Below, piece by piece: positions 2,631 to 5,767 of a DNA stretch of 6,213 bases. Origin of the DNA: Candidatus Fermentibacterales bacterium (GTDB lineage: Bacteria > Fermentibacterota > Fermentibacteria > Fermentibacterales > JAFGKQ01); NCBI GenBank assembly GCA_016928495.1, contig JAFGKQ010000059.1:1-6213 (forward strand), written 5' to 3'. How positions within the stretch are numbered: position 1 is the stretch's first letter; every line of letters starts with the position of its first letter. Below the pieces are notes generated by a model. The model saw only the letters and a list, made by a program, of their open reading frames with translations. It was not told where the DNA came from and made no database searches. The translations under genes were made by a program, and so were the position numbers.

Positions 2631-3788
2631 ATGATGCGCATGCTTCTGCTGGTGCCGGCGTTTGCTGGCCTGGCCCTTGCCTGGGTGCCGGAGTACGATC
2701 CGGAGTATCAGCTCAAGTGCGGAGGGACGATAATCGACGTCGGGTACTACGCTGCGCCCTGCGTGGTAGACTGGGATCTGGACGGCCTGAAGGACCTGAT
2801 CCTCGGGCAGTTCAGCAGCGGCAACATCCGGTTCTACAAGAACGAGGGCAGCAACGAGGCCCCTGTCTTCAACTCGTTCTCCTACCTCTATTCCGACGGG
2901 TCGATCATCACCGTTCCATCCGGTTGATGCACCGGGGCCACGAATCCACAGGTCGTGGATTGGAATGACGACGGGCTCCTGGACATCATCGTGGGCGACC
3001 GCAACGGCTACGTGAACTACTTCCGCAGGACATCCAACGACGCGATCACGCTGACCACCATGCCCGATATCACCTGTGGCGGAGTGACCATCGACTGCGG
3101 CTACAACTCCTCGCCCGCCATAACCGATTGGGACGAGGACGGGGACCTGGACATGCTCCTGGGCACACAGGACGGGTACGTCAGGCTCTACCTGAACGAC
3201 GGGGGCGACTCCCAGCCGGTCTTCAACTCCTACACCAACATCATGAGCGGGGGCAGCAACATCTACCACTACAGGAACTGCCCCCGGGTCTACGATCTCG
3301 ACCAGGACGGCAGGAAGGACCTGATCTGCGGGGCCAACGACTACTACGTGTACTACTACCAGAACACCGGTACGAACTCCTCCCCCTCCTTCAGCGGATG
3401 GGAGAGGATAGCCTACAAGTACTCCGGGATGCGCCTGTGGATAGACGACTGGAACGAGGACGGGCTTCCGGACATGCTCACCAGCGACTACAACGGCTAC
3501 GTCTGGATGTGGATCCAGGAGAACACTGCGGTTGGCGACGAGCAGGCGCCGATCCTGCCCAGGGCGCTGGCCGCGAGCCGGAACCCGTTCGACGCCTCCG
3601 TGGTGATCTCCGCCTCCGGCTTCGGTCCGGGGTCCATCCGGGTCTTCGACCTCTCGGGAAGAGCGGTGGTGAACGAGCCGTTCGACGGCTCGTTCGCATG
3701 GAACGGCGCCGGGGCAGCCAACGGAACCTACCTGGTGCGAGTCGAGGATGCCGACGGAGCTTCCACTCTGAGGCTGGTCAAGCTCTAG
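2631..3788 (+). CDS. Secreted FG-GAP/VCBS beta-propeller protein with in-frame TGA at codon 99 (candidate selenoprotein)
   Basis: The start is ATG at 2631, six bases after GGAGGT; ATG 2634 is an alternative. The product is 385 residues if TGA 2925-2927 is read through. A signal peptide is clear (MMRMLLLVPAFAGLALA, cleavage before WVPEYD). Five FG-GAP/VCBS blades carry Asp-rich, probably Ca-binding loops: DWDLDG (47), DWNDDG (110), DWDEDG (166), DLDQDG (222) and DWNEDG (273). Residues about 318-385 form a C-terminal beta domain (NPFDAS..., IRVFDLSGR, NGTYLVRVED...LRLVKL), like the FlgD-like/type IX-type sorting domains of exported proteins. The TGA falls between blades 1 and 2, is followed by a Cys codon, and the same frame continues to TAG at 3786. 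The downstream part has no ribosome-binding site or signal peptide. Reading TGA as selenocysteine is supported by a SECIS-like hairpin. A nonsense mutation or sequencing error would instead leave a 98-residue fragment. Ligand and function are unknown; such propellers are usually extracellular binding or adhesion modules. Confidence 0.7.
2925..2927 (+). other. In-frame TGA, candidate selenocysteine codon (Sec99)
   Basis: The codon context is Val-Pro-Ser-Gly-[TGA]-Cys-Thr-Gly-Ala-Thr-Asn-Pro. TGA terminates three other genes in this window, so it is not globally reassigned. Sec insertion would produce an adjacent Sec-Cys pair in an exported protein. Single-base changes from GGA (Gly), TGG (Trp), TGC/TGT (Cys) or CGA (Arg) would also explain the codon as a mutation. 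Confidence 0.5.
2943..2961 (+). promoter_or_regulatory. Candidate bacterial SECIS hairpin
   Basis: AATCCAC (2943-2949) and GTGGATT (2955-2961) form a perfect 7-bp stem with the 5-base loop AGGTC. The loop starts 22 bases after the TGA. In known bacterial SECIS elements the loop lies some 16-37 bases after the UGA and has a G in its first two positions; E. coli fdhF uses AGGUCU there, recognised by SelB. Spacing and loop fit. The bulged U found in the fdhF stem is absent. An alternative hairpin, CCACGA (2938-2943) with TCGTGG (2953-2958), competes with it. Confidence 0.5.
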
Positions 3789-4945: not shown

Positions 4946-5767
4946 ATGATCGAGCATCCGGAGGCAGTCCTGCTCGCCAGGCAGATCGGGGAGGAGCTGT
5001 CGGGCAGCAGAGTCGTGAGAGCGATCCGGGGCAACAGCCCCCATAAGTGGGTGTTCTACAACCTGGATCGGGAGCCCTTCGAACGGATACTAGAGGGTAA
5101 GGAAGTGGGTGAATCGTCCTGCGGAGGCAAATGGGTGGACGTTGGCATGGAGCCCGGATACACGCTCCAGTTCGGCGATCTGGGCGGGAGGATCCGGCTC
5201 CATGACTCCGCCGACACCCTTCCGCGGAAGCACCACCTCCTGCTCGAGCTGGAGGGCGGCCGGTTCTTCACGATCACGGTCCAGAACTGGGGCTTTCTGC
5301 GCCTGACGGGACCCGGGGCGCCACGGGAGGAGGGCCACCGCGAGACCGGGCTCTGCCCGACCAACCCGGGGTTCACGACGGAGTACCTTGCCCGCCAGGT
5401 GGGAGACTTCGACCGGAAGAAGAGCGTCAAGGAGTTCATAGTCAGCGGTCCGGCAATCGCCGGCCTCGGCAACGGGTACCTGCAGGACGTCCTGTTCAGG
5501 GCGGGCATCGTGCCGACCAGGAAGCTCTTCCAGTTGAGCGCGGACGACATAGGGAGACTCCACCGGGCCATCGCGGAGGTGATGTCGGAGGCAATAGCCG
5601 CGGACGGCAGGGATACGGAGTACGACCTGCACGACAGGCCCGGGAGGTACGTGGCGGCCATGGACAGGAGAGCCGATGGGAATCCATGCCCGGTCTGCGG
5701 GACTCCGATTCTCAGGGTCAGCTATCTCGGCGCCTCCTGCTACTTCTGTCCGACCTGTCAGACCTGA
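4946..5767 (+). CDS. Fpg/Nei (endonuclease VIII-like) DNA glycosylase family protein lacking the N-terminal catalytic Pro
   Basis: The start is ATG at 4946, with GGGAGG 6 bases upstream; 273 residues, the family's usual length. Three parts of the Fpg/Nei fold are visible. The first is an N-terminal beta domain starting MIEHPEAVLLARQIGEEL, with GGKWVDV (K62) matching the conserved GK. The second is the helix-two-turn-helix at about 157-190 with AIAGLGNGYLQDVLFRAGI. The third is a C-terminal C4 zinc finger (C248, C251, C268, C271; CPVCG...YFCPTCQ). Classical members excise oxidised bases using the N-terminal Pro2 as nucleophile with Glu3, plus an Arg in the zinc-finger turn. Here Pro2 is Ile, Glu3 is kept, and the zinc-finger turn reads GASC with no Arg. 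It matches a divergent subfamily beginning M-I/L-E-x-P-E-A that I recall from many bacteria and that is annotated as endonuclease VIII. Catalysis is therefore uncertain. An 18-base gap separates it from the next gene. Confidence 0.85.
   Translation: MIEHPEAVLLARQIGEELSGSRVVRAIRGNSPHKWVFYNLDREPFERILEGKEVGESSCGGKWVDVGMEPGYTLQFGDLGGRIRLHDSADTLPRKHHLLLELEGGRFFTITVQNWGFLRLTGPGAPREEGHRETGLCPTNPGFTTEYLARQVGDFDRKKSVKEFIVSGPAIAGLGNGYLQDVLFRAGIVPTRKLFQLSADDIGRLHRAIAEVMSEAIAADGRDTEYDLHDRPGRYVAAMDRRADGNPCPVCGTPILRVSYLGASCYFCPTCQT

Follow-up and report, generated by a model that had tools for sequence, protein, structure and literature searches.

An in-frame UGA very probably read as selenocysteine in a family of predicted surface-exported FG-GAP propellers

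The window analysed here, a stretch of 6,213 nucleotides corresponding to contig 143 of a draft Candidatus Fermentibacterales genome (2.3 Mb, 337 contigs, 81% complete), carries a forward-strand gene (2631..3788) in which the in-frame TGA at codon 99 (2925..2927, same strand) is very probably read as selenocysteine (Sec), such that the gene encodes a selenoprotein. The predicted product comprises a signal peptide, which was called from the sequence alone, a five-bladed FG-GAP propeller and a C-terminal sorting domain of the type IX secretion system (T9SS). More broadly, and with moderate confidence, we posit an undescribed family of five-bladed FG-GAP selenoproteins, exported to the cell surface by the type IX route and present in Fermentibacterota, where one genome may have as many as nine, and also in a second phylum, in which Sec, often vicinal to Cys, would serve extracellular redox or soft-metal chemistry new for propellers.

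The gene runs from ATG at 2631 to a TAG stop at 3786–3788, a frame of 385 codons whose sole interruption is the TGA at codon 99. A first-pass annotation of this DNA had described a single TGA at 2925–2927 followed directly by a Cys codon, and its coordinates were correct: TGC (2928..2930, forward strand) comes next and would form a vicinal UC motif with the proposed Sec codon, as in most but not all members of the family. It had also held that coding character continues 3′ of the TGA, which is borne out by FG-GAP repeats on either side of the codon (PF13517, five stretches, 78.4 bits, cut-off 26.9) and by a T9SS type A sorting domain at the protein end (TIGR04183, 29.8 bits, cut-off 23; residues 318–385, 3582..3785 on the forward strand). 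The codons flanking the TGA show a bias of their own. The preceding Gly codon (2922–2924) is frozen as GGT in 76 of 81 Gly codons across relatives, while in no other Gly column of the family does the commonest codon exceed 57%, and TGC predominates at the Cys codon after the TGA; the hairpin described below gives no explanation for this bias. Elsewhere in the window, positions 3–1202 encode a Na/H exchanger domain fused with a PTS EIIA type 2 domain, and a 197-residue protein with a signal-peptide-like start is encoded upstream on the strand of the selenoprotein gene (1919–2512). The latter product has no Pfam match and its gene is not conserved beside relatives; two weak hits aside, no conserved gene neighbourhood of the family was found.

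The closest named relatives come from Candidatus Fermentibacteria, Aegiribacteria and Sabulitectum genomes, from an unclassified marine bacterium and from an entry labelled Desulfuromonas sp. SDB. A TGA lies at or beside the residue-99 column in 14/14 of the homologues examined first, within motifs such as GUCTG[AS]TNPQ[VA]VD and HCUPKTGARNPQVVD. A profile search of 42 Fermentibacterota genomes recovered the family in 36, with up to nine copies per genome and exactly one TGA in nearly every copy. Fetched copies from this phylum together with the 14 first homologues gave 101 distinct TGA contexts, and in all of them (101/101) the TGA falls in the residue-99 column or next to it. The hairpin is kept in 100/100 contexts long enough to contain it, the 101st ending at a contig end. 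The distance from the TGA to the start of the stem is 15 nt in 88 contexts, 18 nt in eight and 12 nt in four, which puts the loop start at 22, 25 or 19 nt (range 19–25 nt). The phylum of the marine genome contributes 24 copies in 11 of 39 genomes, each with one TGA (24/24), and a UC motif and a hairpin with a four-pair core (CCRC/GYGG) accompany it in 24/24, with loops including AGATG, AGATT and GGATC. Some copies in this second phylum stand in tandem arrays of up to four (L202, L203, L208, L206). A plasmid collection searched for the family yielded distant FG-GAP proteins only, and four loci (L038–L041) are general FG-GAP proteins with no TGA in the matched stretches, in which the Sec column cannot be aligned with confidence. 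The first-pass annotation had expected either Cys, or UGA with a conserved hairpin, at this column if the codon encodes Sec; TGA with a conserved hairpin is what the homologues carry, along with one Cys form that lacks the hairpin.

Residues around the proposed Sec vary, being UC in most members, CU in the Sabulitectum type and UG, UA or UN in a few, and the column after Sec is Cys in 85 of 99 genes. In one subgroup the order is swapped from UC to CU, such that Cys stands opposite the Sec of the UC type. The UG, UA and UN members rule out the adjacent Cys as an obligatory partner. Three members span the site without a TGA. One (L126/L177) has Cys there, in an arrangement fitting the CU type, and has lost the hairpin. 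Another, the tandem copy L082 (G015:C35:13819-15018), carries Glu (GAA) at the site and keeps the hairpin; it looks like a recent loss of Sec beside an intact Sec copy, and retention of the hairpin is as expected of a recent change. The third (L143), a truncated copy adjoining a run of N, has TAA. Alignment of Sec with Cys in homologues is confined to a few cases, namely L126/L177 and the CU-type members; Cys forms are very rare among the sequences compared, so that few sequences bear on the classical Sec/Cys exchange test.

The candidate bacterial SECIS element of the window (2943..2961, forward strand) is a perfect 7-bp stem, AATCCAC/GTGGATT (2943–2949 with 2955–2961), closed by the loop AGGTC (2950–2954), which begins 22 nt past the TGA exactly as the first-pass annotation described it. 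The general model for bacterial SECIS elements calls for a loop of 3–9 nt, an upper stem of 4–16 bp and a G within the first two loop positions, 16–37 nt from the UGA (PMC13188914). The window hairpin, with its 5-nt loop AGGUC, 7-bp stem, G at loop position 2 and spacing of 22 nt, agrees with this model in each of these features, upholding the earlier claim of a fit in loop distance and early loop G. A bulged U, whose lack had been counted as a weakness, is indeed absent, but it is no part of the general bacterial model (PMC13188914). Against an energy criterion of −7.5 kcal/mol or lower, the hairpin alone folds at −7.3 kcal/mol and a 54-nt segment containing it at −18.2 kcal/mol; a 40-nt segment around it folds otherwise, at −11.4 kcal/mol, and shuffled versions of a 46-nt segment are on average as stable as the real one (z 0.04). 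A competing fold wins in segments of 39–46 nt (hairpin probability ~0.15), and the hairpin core has a probability of ~0.99 in segments of 54 and 81 nt. The window hairpin by itself is not unusually stable and single-sequence fold energy is uninformative; the above-chance status of this candidate element comes from the comparison between genes and not from energy.

Across 99 genes, 116 codon columns were tested, and the three with the least variation all fall in the hairpin: Asn is AAT in 81/81, Gln is CAG in 95/95 and Val is GTG in 93/93. The hairpin Pro is CCA in 88 genes and CCG in 11, and at the other ten Pro columns the top codon accounts for 34–39%. When the same peptides were recoded with synonymous codons drawn from the family's own usage, all five core pairs formed in 4.2% of trials versus 98/99 real genes, and the mean core pairing probability was 0.055 versus 0.95. 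Two-sided pair changes in 60 distinct hairpins occupy 13 cells versus 4.5 in shuffles, a value reached in 0/500 shuffles. Common descent inflates such covariation counts, but the same tree underlies the column comparison and a slide control, in which shifting the partner strand destroys pairing. Compensation reaches even into the protein sequence: where Asn becomes Ser (AAT to AGT), Asp usually shifts from GAT to GAC, and in both phyla Val becomes Ala (GTG to GCG) solely in hairpins whose Pro codon is CCG. The comparison shows selection acting on both the UGA and the candidate hairpin.

Lack of Sec machinery in view had been the other reservation of the first-pass annotation, and a search of the source genome removed it. 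The genome encodes a tRNA-Sec (74 bits, anticodon UCA), a selB above cut-off adjoining a selA fragment on contig 111, where selA is partial, cut by the contig end, and, on contig 329, a pair of adjacent selD genes that both contain an in-frame TGA (L158, G000:C329:357-2646). Across Fermentibacterota, selA is found in 38/42 genomes and tRNA-Sec above cut-off in 36/42; since the machinery is nearly universal in the phylum, setting presence of the family against presence of the machinery across the 42 genomes gave no contrast. Most SelD genes examined carry a TGA followed, at a similar distance, by a stem around AGGCT or AGGTT, and the AGGYU loop is common to most of them and the propeller family. 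SelD being an accepted selenoprotein, its loop offers an internal reference for what this SelB recognises. Another type of SelD (L159–L161, motif VGUAAKMGP) has a hairpin without the AGGYU loop of the other SelD.

We therefore propose, as the earlier annotation did, that the in-frame UGA specifies Sec, a reading consistent with the TGA and hairpin conserved in two phyla and the machinery encoded in the genome. SelB carrying Sec-tRNA(UCA) would bind the AGGUC loop 22 nt 3′ of the UGA, Sec would be inserted at codon 99, and a full-length protein of 385 residues would result. Since one stop alone breaks an otherwise open frame, the window might simply contain a nonsense mutation, a pseudogene or an assembly error; with the same stop in more than 120 further copies, spread over dozens of genomes and two phyla, sequencing error is untenable, and conservation of both protein and RNA among the copies leaves this explanation as a whole with a negligible probability. 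Nor is translational coupling, by which TGATG would close one gene and open another, any more credible: TGATG occurs in most members as well as in the window, where, however, the overlapping ATG opens a frame of only ~13 codons, and both TGA and hairpin persist in those members whose TGACC, TGAGG, TGAAA or TGAGC offers no such ATG.

A changed genetic code, with UGA standing for another amino acid genome-wide, would equally account for one UGA read through in frame, and we regard it as very improbable. The neighbouring formamidopyrimidine-DNA glycosylase gene ends at a TGA (5765–5767) directly after its terminal zinc finger (residues 245–272 of 273), the other homologues have TAA, TAG or TGA where their C terminus is expected, and a local hairpin would be needless under such a code. 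The analysis turned up no conserved genes of the genome with an in-frame TGA and no hairpin, SelD, a known selenoprotein, excepted. Conserved RNA structure downstream of a stop codon can, in general, stimulate read-through, and the hairpin might accordingly promote decoding by near-cognate tRNAs without Sec, giving a short and a long form. We consider this improbable as well, given the full Sec pathway in Fermentibacterota genomes, a loop that is that of SelD genes in the same phylum, and a spacing and loop that match the SECIS model; in addition, the rare substitution accompanying hairpin loss is Cys, and the short form would amount to one propeller repeat only.

The Sec-containing product is predicted to fold as a five-bladed FG-GAP propeller, as supported by domain matches and a structural model. 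AlphaFold2 run on 14 sequences gave a mean pLDDT of 87, Foldseek matched the model to FG-GAP propellers of the BBSome, integrin alpha and KICSTOR, and VIA-align fitted residues 23–313 to five-bladed GH43 enzymes (Z 19.2, 245 residues, 3.3 Å). Repeats above the curated cut-off and the predicted propeller fold place the protein among FG-GAP propellers. In the model the Sec position falls just before strand 104–109; Sec, usually beside Cys, would sit in a loop ahead of the first strand of the second repeat, perhaps near the central pocket, as such positions do in five-bladed enzymes. Export by the type IX route is predicted and well supported by domain matches, with the signal peptide and an SprA-dependent translocon as its presumed parts. 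SprA, through which type IX cargo crosses the outer membrane, was found above cut-off in 40/42 Fermentibacterota genomes, which makes a surface location plausible, and scored 416.6 bits in the source genome, with neighbours in the frame; a C-terminal sorting domain and a genome-encoded SprA translocon component together mark the protein as predicted T9SS type A cargo.

Sec is kept while its neighbours vary, and a Sec conserved on its own would fit redox or soft-metal chemistry. We lean slightly towards a surface thiol/selenol redox site, and a soft-metal binding site is a more tentative, rather unlikely alternative; links to mercury or metals have been described for several selenoproteins of the catalogue in which Cys and Sec are adjacent (PMC13188914). 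The presence of up to nine paralogues per genome, all keeping Sec insertion, points to an important extracellular chemistry.

The first-pass annotation had proposed a candidate new selenoprotein family, and none of the sources consulted lists it. A 2026 catalogue lists 119 selenoprotein families and subfamilies, most of whose characterised members have a thioredoxin-like fold, and none of the 119 is described as an FG-GAP, VCBS or propeller family (PMC13188914). The family is not among the nine added by deep-Sep in 2025, nor is it represented by a model in NCBIfam (June 2026). The deep-Sep authors noted that their method may miss selenoproteins without Cys homologues, a limitation that fits the propeller family because its Cys forms are very rare. 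A literature search linking selenoproteins with FG-GAP, VCBS or Fermentibacteria, outside which lay preprints and most subscription papers, returned nothing relevant, and an unpublished or subscription-only description is possible. The family would add to the 2026 catalogue a selenoprotein fold and a likely cellular location that are new to it. Database entries will show such genes split in two or labelled as pseudogenes, and a class of Fermentibacterota surface proteins is therefore probably misannotated.

The vicinal Cys-Sec pair of the family is shared with SaoL, SaoC, HgcA, MbdU and KCU-star (PMC13188914), although no sequence relation to these proteins was seen and the propeller family has its pair in the order UC or CU, with Cys optional. 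Like T9SS type A cargo (TIGR04183), its members have a sorting domain above cut-off and SprA in the genome; the literature search yielded no selenoprotein among T9SS cargo. Repeats above the Pfam cut-off and Foldseek matches are held in common with FG-GAP/VCBS propellers (PF13517) of the integrin alpha, BBSome and ITFG2 type, whereas the family has five FG-GAP stretches, superposes best on five-bladed GH43/GH32 and carries Sec, in contrast to distant FG-GAP relatives without it. Its protein fold is unrelated to those of SelD from the same genomes and of E. coli FdhF, whose SECIS loop is AGGUCU; like these proteins, it combines an in-frame UGA, a hairpin with an early-G apical loop at 16–37 nt and the Sec machinery.
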